From Prochlorococcus sp. AG-409-P01 (GTDB lineage Bacteria > Cyanobacteriota > Cyanobacteriia > PCC-6307 > Cyanobiaceae): a DNA stretch of 64,000 bases. Location of the stretch: the NCBI GenBank assembly GCA_003215335.1, contig QCKM01000007.1, positions 1 through 64,000 of the forward strand, in the 5' to 3' direction. Below the pieces are notes generated by a model. It had not been told where the DNA came from and ran no database searches. It was given only the letters and a program-made list of their open reading frames with translations. Made by a program: the position numbers and the translations under genes. Positions 1 to 15,067 of the stretch are shown here, in pieces. How positions within the stretch are numbered: the first letter of the stretch is position 1; each line of letters opens with the position of its first letter.

Positions 1-537
1 TCTATAAATGCCTAGAGCCCCTAATAGTCCACCTATAAAGCCACTGAAATGTCCTATCCAGCTAATACCTTGAGGGACATTCCATGGCAGCAAAGATGGA
101 AGGAAATGGCCATACAGTCCAAAACAAATCACGGTGAGGGCAATTGCAAGAAAACGTTTTTCTAAAAAGCCAATAATCAACAAGTATCCAAGGAGGCCAA
201 ACACCACTCCTGAGATCCCATGTGCTGGAGCAGCCCAAAAGAACACTTGGAATATTTCGACAAACAAAACACATGCCCAGACAGAGATGTAATCACGTAG
301 TCCTTTTGAAAGGACGAGCCAACTCAAAGGAAGAAACAGAAGTGTGTTTGAGAGCAAATGACTAAATCCGCTGTGACTGAAAGGAGCGGTAAAGAGTCCC
401 CACCATGGATACCCCCCTCCCATTAGAAGATTCCAATTCCCACCAAACCAGATCTGATCAATTAGCTCCTGAACCCAAGCGATTCCAATTAAAACCAAAG
501 GAACTAAGAATCGCAGTGATTTACTAGCACTATTCAT
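1..537 (-). CDS. Rhomboid family intramembrane serine protease (3' end beyond window)
   Basis: The reading frame starts at the ATG complementary to 535-537 and stays open to the window edge, giving about 178 visible residues. It is rich in membrane segments. Rhomboid landmarks are visible: HxxxN at H60-N64 (SHLLSN), the nucleophile motif GISG with Ser109, and a late membrane helix with His163 in GHFSGFIGG, the expected partner of the Ser-His dyad. Rhomboids cleave membrane proteins within the bilayer; the substrate here is unknown. The gene lies 40 bp downstream of the RepA-like gene on the same strand and looks like ordinary chromosome rather than part of that cassette. The C-terminus is missing only because the window ends. 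Confidence 0.88.
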   Translation of the reverse strand, partial: MNSASKSLRFLVPLVLIGIAWVQELIDQIWFGGNWNLLMGGGYPWWGLFTAPFSHSGFSHLLSNTLLFLPLSWLVLSKGLRDYISVWACVLFVEIFQVFFWAAPAHGISGVVFGLLGYLLIIGFLEKRFLAIALTVICFGLYGHFLPSLLPWNVPQGISWIGHFSGFIGGLLGALGIYR

Positions 538-568
538 TTCAATACGACGTGTCTAATTAAAAGCATCA

Positions 569-585
569 CTACATACCCTATGTAG
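569..585. repeat. 17-bp palindrome, copy 1 (3' side of the RepA-like gene)
   Basis: CTACATA-CCC-TATGTAG is a perfect 7-bp inverted repeat with a 3-base centre. It overlaps the stop codon of the RepA-like gene (578-580). The reverse complement of 1549-1565 differs from it at one base of 17, and similarity continues into the flank (GGnAAAGT). It could be a recombination or protein-binding site, or a hairpin at the end of the transcript; the function is inferred only. Confidence 0.6.
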
Positions 586-1585
586 GGAAAGTCTTAGCCC
601 CATAAACCCACAACGGTCGTCCACCTCCTGAAGGACGCTGTTGTCGCTCAAGTTCACCTGTCAAATAAAGGTTTTTACAGATCCGGCGAGCATGTTCAGG
701 GTTACAACTGAGTGACATCCCTATTTGATTAGAAGTCAGCCATTCGTTTTCTGAACAAACCAAATCCAGGACTTGGGCGCTCAGTTCTTGTTTTTGTTGT
801 GGGAGAACGTCAGCATTGCCAACACTTTTTAATTGCCAGCTGAAATCCTCTAGTGAGCCTTGAAGGTTCCAGACTTGCCCGTGCTCGCAGTTTCGCTTCC
901 CAAGGCATTTCAAGATGTAGTGATCATCAAATTCAGGCTTAGGAGCGCTAGCGAGACCCCAAATATCTGATGCTGCACCAACTTGTGTTGTCGAGCCAAT
1001 CACATCATGAATACTGACTTCTTGTCTTGTTCCCTCTGGTTTACGTAGATGTGCATTGCAGACAATCAATACACCTAACTGACTGGCCAGATTGTTGATG
1101 TCATAGAGAGGTCTCGCGAATTCAGGATCACGCATTGAGTATCCCCTTTCAGTGAGCAATGTCGTCAGACTGTCGAGGAACAATGCTCCATAACCTCCTT
1201 TTTGAATCTCTTGACTAATGCGACTGACATCGAGAGTGTTCCAACCATCTTCAGCGAATAGAAAATCAAAGCCTGCATTGATTCCCATTAGCTGCAGCTT
1301 GTCAGCAGCATTGTTCTGACTTTCATCTGCTTGAACAATCAACACCTTGCTTTGAACGGTATTGAGTTGATCCATAAACAACTGACCTTTACTGATTGCA
1401 TCAGCCATCCGATAGAGGAACGATGTTTTACCTGCACCGCTATCACCAGCCAATAAAACGCAAGCACCTCTTGCGCCGAAACTATCGACGACCCATTGAA
1501 TCGGCCGCCGATTTGCTAACAGTTGATCAACTCCTTTGGGAACTTTTCCTACATCGGGTATGTAGCCATGTTGATTTGGTCTCAT
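578..1585 (-). CDS. RepA-like / AAA_25-type hexameric ATPase (putative replicative helicase of an accessory element)
   Basis: This 335-aa protein has a RecA-fold ATPase core. Walker A is GDSGAGKT (47-54) and a Walker B-like strand is ALFLDSL (134-140). The arrangement matches RepA/RSF1010-type and AAA_25 helicase ATPases found in plasmids, phages and satellites. The last about 60 residues (WLTSNQIGMSLSCNPEHARR and following) resemble a winged helix. The ATG overlaps the stop of the upstream 69-aa gene as ATGA (1582-1585), implying translational coupling in a four-gene operon running from 2331 to 578. A near-identical palindrome lies at each end of the gene (569-585 and 1549-1565). The ATPase fold is fairly secure; the helicase role and mobile origin are inferred from family and context. 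Confidence 0.75.
   Translation of the reverse strand: MRPNQHGYIPDVGKVPKGVDQLLANRRPIQWVVDSFGARGACVLLAGDSGAGKTSFLYRMADAISKGQLFMDQLNTVQSKVLIVQADESQNNAADKLQLMGINAGFDFLFAEDGWNTLDVSRISQEIQKGGYGALFLDSLTTLLTERGYSMRDPEFARPLYDINNLASQLGVLIVCNAHLRKPEGTRQEVSIHDVIGSTTQVGAASDIWGLASAPKPEFDDHYILKCLGKRNCEHGQVWNLQGSLEDFSWQLKSVGNADVLPQQKQELSAQVLDLVCSENEWLTSNQIGMSLSCNPEHARRICKNLYLTGELERQQRPSGGGRPLWVYGAKTFPT
1549..1565. repeat. 17-bp palindrome, copy 2 (inside 5' end of the RepA-like gene)
   Basis: CTACAT-CGGGT-ATGTAG is a 6-bp inverted repeat around a 5-base centre. Read on the minus strand it matches 16 of 17 bases of the copy at 569-585, so the two copies are in opposite orientation 964 bp apart. It encodes residues YIPDV near the N-terminus of the ATPase, so part of its sequence is constrained by coding. 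Confidence 0.6.
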
Positions 1586-1791
1586 CGGTAAAGCCTCCTA
1601 GCTGGAAGAAGCAGAATCCATTCCTCCATGGATTGAATTGCGTCCTGACACCAGGGCAGATAGTGATCTAGATGTGACTTAGCTCTCGCAATGCGAAGTT
1701 GCCAAATAACTTCTTCAATCGAGAGTTCTCTCGGTAAGCTGTAGCTATTGATGTTTGCTCCAGCCACCGTTTCCCCGGTGGCTTTTTTCAT
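1582..1791 (-). CDS. Small hypothetical protein of the RepA-like cassette
   Basis: This 69-aa protein is not recognised. It begins MKKATGETVAGANINSYS and has a central amphipathic stretch with several Trp, Arg and His residues. Its start overlaps the stop of the upstream HTH gene (1788-1791) and its stop overlaps the start of the RepA-like ATPase (1582-1585), both as ATGA. These tight overlaps on both sides are the main reason to accept it as real. It may be a replication accessory protein, but nothing in the sequence proves that. Confidence 0.6.
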   Translation of the reverse strand: MKKATGETVAGANINSYSLPRELSIEEVIWQLRIARAKSHLDHYLPWCQDAIQSMEEWILLLPARRLYR

Positions 1792-2060
1792 GACTTTTGC
1801 CTGCTAGGGAGACGATTGTTTTTGCCTAAATAGGTCTCAAATTGATCGCTCGTGAGGCGATGGAAATTCGTGAAAGACGACTCAGCGTTTGCCAAATGCC
1901 ATTGCAAATTTCCATTGGTGGTGAGGCCTGCCCATCTGAAATCAACTCCCTCACGAAATGGTGAGAGGTCGCTTCGACGAAGCTTGAGAATTGTTTGCGG
2001 GTGAATACCAAGATGCGTGGCCATGGCAGCCGTGCTGATCCAATCTTTTGTTGTTGTCAT
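1788..2060 (-). CDS. Excisionase-like helix-turn-helix DNA-binding protein
   Basis: The 90-aa protein begins MTTTKDWISTAAMATHLGIHPQ. The segment at about residues 7-30 (WISTAAMATHLGIHPQTILKLRR) fits a MerR/AlpA/excisionase-type helix-turn-helix, followed by a wing-like FREGVDFRW. Such proteins act as recombination directionality factors or small repressors in integrative elements. It is the second gene of the minus-strand cassette and is coupled by an ATGA overlap to the next gene. The HTH is visible; the excisionase role is inferred. No integrase is encoded within the window near it. Confidence 0.6.
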   Translation of the reverse strand: MTTTKDWISTAAMATHLGIHPQTILKLRRSDLSPFREGVDFRWAGLTTNGNLQWHLANAESSFTNFHRLTSDQFETYLGKNNRLPSRQKS

Positions 2061-2067
2061 ATCTTTC

Positions 2068-2331
2068 TCAGTCTTGGCCTAAAAATTTCTGTTGAGAGCC
2101 CTCAATCCCTAACTCTGGGTCTACCCAAAAAGCTCCTGAGACACTTGTGTAGTAATCCCGCTCCGATGCAACAGAAAGTAGAGCAAAAGTGGCTACCTTC
2201 TTTTCTCTAGACCAACTTGAATCGACGAAATTCTGCTGGCCTAATTCCAGTCGAGCGTCACCCCGCTTGATTTGTTTTGGACGATCAGCGTATTTATTTA
2301 CTGAGCGATTTTTGCCTTTTTTAGTTGGCAT
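2068..2331 (-). CDS. Small basic hypothetical protein, first gene of the RepA-like cassette
   Basis: This 87-aa protein has a very basic N-terminus (MPTKKGKNRSVNKYADRPKQIKRGD) and a mixed, acidic C-terminus. I do not recognise a family. The start is supported by a near-perfect ribosome binding site, AGGGAGGAG on the minus strand at 2336-2344, four bases from the ATG. It ends 7 bp before the HTH gene, so it probably opens the four-gene operon. The basic N-terminus would suit nucleic-acid binding, which is only a guess. Confidence 0.55.
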   Translation of the reverse strand: MPTKKGKNRSVNKYADRPKQIKRGDARLELGQQNFVDSSWSREKKVATFALLSVASERDYYTSVSGAFWVDPELGIEGSQQKFLGQD

Positions 2332-2570
2332 GAGACTCCTCCCTAAAACGGATGTTTTTCTTGGACAAGGAGGTTTGGTCTCTGTGTAGCGCCGAGGTTG
2401 TGTCCTTCCCTCAGAGCCACTCGGTCAAACTTGAAAACAAACTAGCAATATCGCGAGCTTTTGCAAACTAATCACACCACAGGTAGTGTTTTTTTGGTAT
2501 AAATTTTGGCATAGATGCTATTTAGACAAAAAACGAGAAACCCTAAATCTACTGCTATCAAAGAATTGAA

Positions 2571-2586
2571 GGGGCCTCGCAGCCCC
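2571..2586 (-). terminator. GC hairpin at the 3' end of tmRNA
   Basis: GGGGC (2571-2575) pairs with GCCCC (2582-2586) around a 6-base loop. On the minus strand it is followed by TTCAATTCTTTG, only a weak T-run. It may be a processing or termination hairpin, or part of the tmRNA 3' domain. Confidence 0.4.
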
Positions 2587-2866
2587 CACGGATCATTTGG
2601 GTGATAAGGCTGATCTGACCCCATCTCCCTTATTAGGGTCAGGCAGCAACAGGGGCTGACTGACGGGAGAAACGAACGATGTTGTTCGCAGTTACGAGTT
2701 TGCTCTTACCGAGCAGGCTTCAGTCACCCTCCTCATCCCCCGTCGAAACCATTGCAGCCCCTAGATAAATGAGAAATGGAGCTGAGCGGAATCGAACCGC
2801 TGTCCGAGACACTGGTGTGGATCACCTAGTCCATCAGATGATGAACATTCCCATTCTGGCAGTGTT
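2571..2866 (-). ncRNA. ssrA: Permuted two-piece tmRNA (ssrA)
   Basis: On the minus strand the acceptor piece comes first: a T-arm with GGTTCGATTCC and the 3' strand CAGCTCC plus discriminator A ending at 2777. The coding piece starts at 2761 with GGGGCTGCAATGG. GGGGCTG pairs with CAGCTCC to form the acceptor stem, so the gene is circularly permuted with a spacer of only about 15 nt (2762-2776). The tag frame (2639-2689) encodes ANNIVRFSRQSAPVAA then TGA, closely resembling picocyanobacterial tags. A hairpin (TGACCC/GGGGTCA) follows the tag. tmRNA rescues stalled ribosomes and tags nascent proteins for proteolysis. Both outer ends are approximate; the CCA is not encoded. A GC hairpin at 2571-2586 marks the likely 3' limit. 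Confidence 0.93.
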
Positions 2867-13084: not shown

Positions 13085-14431
13085 ATGCCAATTGGCAAAG
13101 TTCTTATCGCTAACCGCGGGGAAATTGCTCTAAGAATTCTTCGTAGCTGCAGGGAGCTTGGCATTGCCACTGTTGCGGTCTACAGCACTGTTGACCGAAA
13201 TGCATTACACGTTCAATTAGCAGATGAAGCCGTTTGCGTTGGGGATGCTCCTAGCAACAAAAGCTATCTGAATATTCCAAATATCCTTGCAGCAGCTACT
13301 TCCCGAGGGGTAGATGCTATTCATCCTGGATATGGCTTCCTTGCAGAAAATGACAGATTTGCAGAGATCTGTCATGACCATGGGCTGATCTTTATAGGCC
13401 CTTCGCCCCATTCGATCCGCTCTATGGGGGATAAATCAACTGCAAAAACAACAATGCAGGGTGTAGGAGTTCCGACAGTCCCTGGAAGCGAAGGCTTACT
13501 TAAAAGTATCGAAGAGGCTCGAAAGTTGGCTCAAGAGATGGGCTATCCAGTAATGATCAAAGCAACAGCAGGTGGCGGTGGCCGTGGGATGCGTCTCGTA
13601 AATAAGCCAGAGCAACTAGAAAACCTTTATAAAGCTGCTCAAGGAGAAGCTGAAGCTGCCTTTGGAAATGCTGGGCTATACATGGAAAAATTCATTGATC
13701 GACCGCGGCATGTCGAAGTGCAAGTCCTAGCTGATACGCATGGGAATGTTGTTCACTTAGGTGAGCGTGATTGTTCAATTCAAAGAAGGCATCAGAAACT
13801 TCTTGAGGAATCACCTAGCCCAGCTTTAGATATCAAACTCAGACATCGCATGGGCGAAGCTGCAGTTGCTGCGGCTAAAAGTATTAACTATGAAGGAGCC
13901 GGAACCGTCGAATTCCTCTTGGACCGCAATGGTTCCTTCTATTTCATGGAGATGAACACTCGAATCCAAGTCGAGCATCCCGTCACAGAGATGGTTACTG
14001 GTGTCGATCTAATTGCTGAGCAACTGCGAATTGCTGGAGGTGAATCCATCAGCTTCAAACAAGAAGATATTCAATTAAGAGGCCATGCCATCGAATGTCG
14101 AATCAATGCAGAAGATGCCACTCGTAACTTCCGACCCTCTCCAGGGAAAATAACTGGATGGCTCCCTCCAGGCGGGCCAGGAGTAAGAGTCGACAGTCAC
14201 GTGTACACGGGTTATGACATACCACCTTTTTACGACTCTTTAATTGGAAAGTTAATTGTCTGGGGTGATAACCGCGAAGCAGCACTGAAACGAATGAAAA
14301 GGGCTCTCAACGAATGCGCAATCACTGGCATCCCTACGACTATTGATTTCCATTTGAATCTGCTCAATCGAAAAGAATTTTTAGTTGGAGACGTACACAC
14401 CAAATTTGTTGAGCAAGAAATGCTTGATTAA
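13085..14431 (+). CDS. accC: Biotin carboxylase subunit of acetyl-CoA carboxylase
   Basis: The 448-aa protein is full length. It starts [26 protein letters not shown] and shows the ATP-grasp glycine loop GGGGRGMR and the conserved [14 protein letters not shown]. It carboxylates the biotin of AccB using ATP and bicarbonate, the first half of the acetyl-CoA carboxylase reaction in fatty acid synthesis. It stands alone; other acc subunits are not in this window. Confidence 0.98.
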
Positions 14432-14455
14432 AAAAGCTTCAACTAATAATTTTTT

Positions 14456-14788
14456 TTACTTTGTCAATGTCAATAGTTGAGTGATTAAACCTTGTTGACC
14501 AACCAAGAGTTCACGAGAAAGGCTAATCAAGCCAAACCAAATCACAGGAGTGACATCTACGCCCCCAATGGGAGGGACAAACCTTCTTGTAAAAGCTAAA
14601 AGCAGCTCAGTAGGCAAAGCCACCAATGGCCAAAAACCCTTTTGCAAATTAACTTCTGGATACCAAGTCATCACTATCCGAACCAAAAATGTGACAGACC
14701 ATATCGCAAGGGCAAAGGCCAAGAAAAAATGGATGGCTGGCAAAGCCTTAAACAGAATTGGCATCACAAAGCTCAAAGGATCTGGCAA
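14456..14788 (-). CDS. YggT family membrane protein (Ycf19-like)
   Basis: The 110-aa protein has two to three hydrophobic segments and the YggT features FLVRIVMTWYPEVN and PTELLLAFTRRFVPPIGGVDVTPVIWF. YggT/Ycf19 proteins are integral membrane proteins linked in cyanobacteria and plastids to nucleoid distribution and to cytochrome b6 haem attachment. It is convergent with accC, separated by 24 bp. Confidence 0.85.
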   Translation of the reverse strand: MPDPLSFVMPILFKALPAIHFFLAFALAIWSVTFLVRIVMTWYPEVNLQKGFWPLVALPTELLLAFTRRFVPPIGGVDVTPVIWFGLISLSRELLVGQQGLITQLLTLTK

Positions 14789-14851
14789 TGCATCGTAGAA
14801 AAGTCCTAAAGATCATTAGTATCGTGTTGGCCATGCCTTAGTAAGCAGCTA

Positions 14852-14965
14852 ATGACCCCATCACTCATAAATTTGTTGCTCAGTCTCGTTGGAGCCATTG
14901 TTTTATTGGTCCCAGCCGTTATTGCCCTGGTTTGGGTCAGCCAAAAAGATCAGCTTTCACGCTGA
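14852..14965 (+). CDS. psbX: Photosystem II protein PsbX
   Basis: A 37-aa frame reads MTPSLINLLLSLVGAIVLLV and ends WVSQKDQLSR. This is the PsbX pattern: one membrane helix with the family's terminal SQKDxxxR. PsbX is a small thylakoid subunit near the QB side of photosystem II. It is monocistronic, divergent from YggT and 102 bp before Ycf66. Confidence 0.93.
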   Translation: MTPSLINLLLSLVGAIVLLVPAVIALVWVSQKDQLSR

Positions 14966-15067
14966 ATTAGTTGCATAGGACCTAACAACCCCTGACGCAC
15001 TTCTTAGACTGGACTTCAATCAGGCTTATCAAAAGCCTCATCTCCGGACTTCACTAGGTGGCGAACT

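Follow-up and report, generated by a model that had tools for sequence, protein, structure and literature searches.

We consider it likely that a mobile element of about 18.4 kb, probably still complete, is integrated in the tmRNA gene of Prochlorococcus sp. AG-409-P01, and that the four-gene cassette downstream of this gene forms its tmRNA-proximal end. The element would carry an ssrA-specific integrase, a putative replication module and cargo genes. The window, that is the whole 64,000-nucleotide stretch of DNA analysed here, comprises positions 1 to 64,000 of contig QCKM01000007.1 (assembly GCA_003215335.1; hereafter contig C7 of genome G000). This genome is assembled in 31 contigs and is 99.5% complete with a contamination estimate of 0.1%; the named relatives among the compared genomes are likewise Prochlorococcus sp. 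Because the window and contig C7 begin at the same base, the left edge of the window is an assembly edge, and this contig edge cuts through a rhomboid protease gene.

The genome contains a single tmRNA gene (ssrA; 2548..2866, minus strand), the integration target, which was identified as permuted and intact by both ARAGORN and the Rfam cyano_tmRNA model (302.8 bits, full model length), confirming that the cassette lies beside ssrA. The downstream ORFs encode p87, a basic protein of 87 aa (2068..2331), HTH90, an excisionase-like winged-helix protein of 90 aa (1788..2060), p69 of 69 aa (1582..1791) and a RecA-fold ATPase of the DnaB/RepA type of 335 aa (578..1585), all on the minus strand. The rhomboid gene (1..552, minus strand; Pfam Rhomboid, 1.2e-16) is the next ORF after the ATPase, as the initial annotation had stated. 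That annotation had also described the four cassette genes as overlapping: all four ORFs exist on the minus strand, but overlap is limited to HTH90, p69 and the start of the ATPase, 7 bases separating the 87-aa ORF from the HTH90 ORF. When the four proteins were compared with profile libraries, as had been suggested, the only clear Pfam match was that of the ATPase (AAA_25, E=1.9e-18); HTH90 gave weak matches to HTH_17, DUF1233 (putative excisionase) and the excisionase family phrog_66, and no family match was obtained for p87 or p69.

The structural model of HTH90 is a winged helix of moderate confidence (mean pLDDT 74.5), and its best structural matches are the putative excisionase 2kvv and RdfS, 8dgl (Foldseek E 0.011); HTH90 is thus likely, as judged from the model, to be an excisionase or recombination directionality factor. 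The ATPase model (pLDDT 81.9) has Walker A and B motifs, and its residues 14-257 match DnaB, G40P, RSF1010 RepA and T7 gp4 with VIA-align Z scores of 21-24; the scores of KaiC and RadA are almost equal to those of the DnaB/RepA group. With hexameric helicases of the RSF1010 RepA and DnaB type the window ATPase shares the RecA-fold core (Z from 21.9 for 1g8y to 23.8 for 3bh0) at 15-17% sequence identity. Unlike them, it is predicted to carry an additional C-terminal domain (residues 262-329, modelled as three helices and two strands), which we read as a winged helix, and its gene lies between inverted sites at both ends. A sequence search of the PDB returned nothing useful, and phage and plasmid records yielded remote ATPases alone, at 22-29% identity. 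Its fold and position suggest that the ATPase, together with the inverted sites, may act in replication.

The cassette had initially been described as being without an integrase. As a query we used a divergent tyrosine recombinase that neighbours an ATPase homologue in locus L067 of a relative and was recognised by its R...SFRH...MGH...Y motifs. This search revealed an intact divergent tyrosine recombinase on another contig of the same genome, C1 (ORF C1:13784-14983; search match 13796-14983). The protein is too divergent for a Pfam match; its catalytic residues are conserved, and the conserved columns include R269, K294, R380, H403 and Y412. A maximum-likelihood tree of 21 recombinases placed the six tmRNA-linked sequences, four of which are identical, in one clade with 100/99 support. 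The check for direct repeats of the tmRNA 3' end, which the initial annotation had also suggested, gave a positive result: the attL segment of the tmRNA gene (2568..2606, minus strand) is repeated at C1:15119-15157 as a 39-bp attR with 90% identity (E=4.3e-8 genome-wide), the sole other strong tmRNA match in the genome, located about 136 bp upstream of the recombinase match. When attL and attR of four genomes (G000, G078, G011 and G111) were aligned, similarity started sharply at TATCACC and extended over about 36-40 bp, and the sequence outside the G000 attR (CCCCCTCTTTAATTGCA) resembles the native tmRNA-downstream sequence of other genomes. Past attR, the first feature is what is left of an ATPase gene from a different kind of element, namely its 3' end (C1:15185-15315, locus L107; 82%), and genes that we read as trxB, sbtB and sbtA come next. 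This remnant belongs to the tRNA-Pro element type and points to previous insertions into this island.

The recombinase, attR and their orientation are consistent with an element that runs from the tmRNA (C7:2568) leftward to C7:1 and then from C1:1 to C1:15157. In locus L083 of genome G183, the homologues of C7:1 and C1:1 follow each other as expected, at a distance of 0.67 kb; since other relatives have them in other orders, this spacing counts as support for the join and not as proof. From these sequence comparisons we infer that the two contigs join into one element, whose size, with a gap of about 0.67 kb, would be the 18.4 kb given above. The cassette would then not be minimal, as had been supposed, since contig C7 breaks inside the element; nor would it lack cargo, since the joined contigs place the rhomboid gene between the att sites and hence in the element. 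The possibility that the rhomboid gene is a chromosomal flank was rejected on this ground and by its presence elsewhere within islands in relatives. C1 contributes a DnaB-like helicase of 308 aa, an HTH_17 protein and SNase, SPFH, TPR and zinc-peptidase genes. Neither packaging or capsid-redirecting genes nor relaxase or conjugation genes were recognised among the proteins scanned, which represent the sequence on either side of the 0.67-kb gap except for some of its small ORFs.

A related element is present whole on one contig in genome G078 (Prochlorococcus sp. AG-363-O16, locus L031), where the tmRNA is followed by p87 (73%), HTH90 (67%) and the ATPase (46%) and, about 17 kb further on, by the recombinase (61%) and attR. 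The same pieces were found in G006, G019 and G011, and a diverged version of 27 kb is present in G111, a genome of 2.3 Mb assembled in one contig. Instead of occupying the same place in all related genomes, the p87-HTH90 pair beside the tmRNA is patchily distributed: it is present in G000, G006, G011, G019, G020 and G078 and absent in G003, G012, G013, G030, G051, G052, G056, G072, G092, G099, G128, G183 and G271. Vertically inherited core genes were rejected on this pattern. The order tmRNA-island-trxB was observed on one contig and in the same relative orientation in G099, G030, G072 and G078, with distances of 6.3 to 29.4 kb; tmRNA and trxB are separated by at least 80 kb in G003, G051, G052, G092 and G129. 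A second, nearly full tmRNA copy with 78% identity lies 3 kb downstream of the tmRNA in G013 (L071:10428-10681, G013:C8), and the two copies enclose sugar genes of the SIS-domain, HAD and cytidylyltransferase types.

Comparison of the individual genes revealed a mosaic. Homologues of p87 (73%) were found beside the tmRNA (L031-L034 and L089) with no further hit in the loci searched, and HTH90 homologues (67% beside the tmRNA) above 45% identity are almost all tmRNA-adjacent, the exception being a 45% homologue without a tmRNA within its 4-kb locus (L014). Homologues of p69 (71-78%) instead precede the ATPase in tRNA-Pro-linked elements (L072, L096 and L081). DNA identity to the tRNA-Pro-linked islands of other species amounts to 80-86% for p69, 88% for the final 325 bp of the ATPase gene and at most 97% for the rhomboid gene; the core rlmK protein of those species is about 55-61% identical. 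Since p87, in the loci searched, and for the most part HTH90 are confined to positions beside the tmRNA, while p69, the ATPase 3' end and the rhomboid gene match tRNA-Pro islands, we regard the element as modular and tycheposon-like, which agrees with the original proposal that the cassette is the replication and control end of such an element inserted at the tmRNA. The junction between the ATPase end and the rhomboid gene recurs in G049 (92% over window positions 1-618) and is therefore probably not an assembly artefact. The rhomboid gene of G099 directly follows a 3' fragment of tRNA-Pro (L085, G099:C18); the same cargo gene thus borders tRNA-Pro in one species and sits in a tmRNA element in another. 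In L067, a full ATPase gene precedes genes for type I restriction-modification (HsdM and HsdR by Pfam), and genes of this type begin right after the end-side inverted site, site E, in both L067 (by Pfam) and L068 (by similarity and size). Many decayed ATPase pieces are held in the relatives' islands.

Three other explanations of the locus were weighed against these data. A minimal element mobilised in trans by an integrase elsewhere, as suggested initially, would agree with a window devoid of an integrase and with an integrase gene on another contig; we judge it highly improbable, because the C1 integrase belongs to the ssrA-specific clade and is found, at what would be the other end of the element, beside the only other copy of the tmRNA 3' end and upstream of trxB, and because all corresponding parts lie on one contig in G078. 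A chimeric contig edge, by which contaminating DNA bearing the rhomboid end was joined to the tmRNA locus, could likewise be imagined from the contig ending inside the rhomboid gene and from the near identity of this gene to that of genomes with a distant rlmK protein. The same junction in G049, the low contamination estimate and the first gene of C1, which by comparison with L083 is the one expected after the rhomboid gene, leave this explanation a very small probability as well. Somewhat more weight, though still little, is given to an inactivated remnant fixed in the lineage: decayed ATPase pieces are abundant in relatives and a remnant of another element type follows attR, but no damage is apparent in the ORFs for the integrase, HTH90, the ATPase and the DnaB-like helicase or in either att site, and the term remnant used at first is for this reason not retained.

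The ATPase gene is bracketed by two locus-matched inverted sites, which is a new finding here; we know of no prior description of a bracketed ATPase of this kind. Site S (CTACATACCCGATGTAGGAAAAGT; 1542..1565, minus strand) lies at the start side within the ATPase ORF, and site E (CTACATACCCTATGTAGGGAAAGT; 569..592, plus strand) overlaps the stop codon. These inverted sites of 13-33 bp match within a locus and differ between loci, and the same inward-pointing arrangement was observed in most ATPase homologues down to about 37% identity (the window, L067, L068, L031, L098-L100 and L022 being examples). The bracket co-varies: L022, L015, L016 and L011 have other site sequences, yet the two sites of each locus match. 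An inverted-repeat score of at least 12 was obtained for 15 of 24 ATPase loci as compared to 3 of 93 control genes, and none of 20,000 random pairings attained the summed score obtained when the start of each locus was paired with the end of that locus (permutation p<5e-5, a guide only since related loci are not independent). The start-side copy is translated in frame (VGK), so that part of the constraint on it comes from the protein. In L098 and L100 the end-side copy is found beyond the gene, which makes selection at the DNA level likely. The outer palindrome CTACATANGGTATGTAG, searched with at most one mismatch in 300 genomes, occurred 13 times, 11 of these at ATPase ends or associated DLH/rhomboid junctions, with 4 control matches. 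Site E is the breakpoint between the ATPase and varying downstream genes. DLH is joined to the rhomboid gene in G183 via a perfect palindrome, GCATCACTACATA-GGG-TATGTAGTGATGC (L083:3725-3753, G183:C21), which equals the outer half of site E; in G049 the same core, with no ATPase, occurs at another DLH junction (L090:6900, G049:C2). Such palindromes suggest recombination at site E. A lone copy of the bracket motif occurs in the tmRNA element of G111, far from the ATPase (L127/L130, G111:C1:422096).

We propose that S and E are initiator sites of the element, which may serve in replication or its control. The chances are about even that they have another function, for which three candidates can be named. 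An operator for autoregulation by HTH90 or the ATPase would explain the site overlapping the gene start; a copy at the 3' end, noncoding in L098 and L100, would be unusual for an operator. The core of a site-specific recombination system at the cargo boundary would account for gene partners that switch exactly at E (ATPase/DLH, ATPase/rhomboid and DLH/rhomboid), but the motif is missing from the att/int region of L107 and the breakpoints may merely mark the end of a module. Pairing of the gene ends in the mRNA is conceivable, as S and E are complementary there; the window pair, however, sets A opposite C inside the core. An integrase arm site is disfavoured, as no bracket motif was found near attR and the integrase gene. 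A broader form of the initiator proposal, which we hold only tentatively, treats the ATPase with its pair of end sites as a self-contained cartridge for replication (or rearrangement): the protein's own winged helix would read a private inverted pair, site and reader would evolve together, and elements that differ in integrase and target (tmRNA, tRNA-Pro and tRNA-Val) would exchange the cartridge as a whole.

For the element as a whole we envisage recombination between the tmRNA 3' end (attB) and the copy carried by the element (attP), catalysed by the ssrA-specific tyrosine recombinase encoded at the far end; attL would retain a working tmRNA and attR the 39-bp repeat. HTH90 would act as the excisionase, and the excised circle would be replicated or maintained by the ATPase as helicase or initiator, probably with the DnaB-like helicase of 308 aa and by means of the two inverted sites around the ATPase gene. 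The rhomboid, SNase, zinc-ribbon, SPFH, TPR and zinc-peptidase genes would be cargo. Movement between cells may involve vesicles or phage particles. The suggested search for virion or vesicle DNA retrieved no relative from IMG/VR with the ATPase, an ATPase alignment, the integrase or p87 as queries, a result that is still compatible with either route, and no sign of an excised form was encountered.

Tycheposons, reportedly described by Hackl et al. in 2023 (Cell 186:47-62), are the closest comparison. As far as their features can be gathered, partly via citing papers (PMC10872708, PMC10187409), the element resembles them in its divergent tyrosine recombinase, in having entered a tRNA-type gene at the 3' end with a direct repeat as the outcome, in its genomic-island position with variable cargo, in its marine picocyanobacterial host and in having replication-type genes of its own. 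Relative to these accounts, ssrA as the target is a possible difference, as is the fact that no capsid or packaging gene was recognised among the proteins scanned. Islands targeting tmRNA (Williams 2002, as cited in PMC2784084 and PMC4131195) are described there as using a tyrosine recombinase at the tmRNA 3' end and restoring the gene, as is the case here; compared with those summaries, our element differs in its Pfam-divergent recombinase, the cyanobacterial permuted tmRNA and its gene content.

An apparent integrase-less oddity has thus become a delimited and testable element, and the case illustrates that contig edges can fake minimal elements. For the most abundant phototrophs of the ocean, it defines an integrase clade specific for ssrA along with the att sites, and it provides evidence for an exchange of core modules, across species, between elements that differ in target. 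The bracketed helicase gene is a candidate for the replication of such elements after excision.
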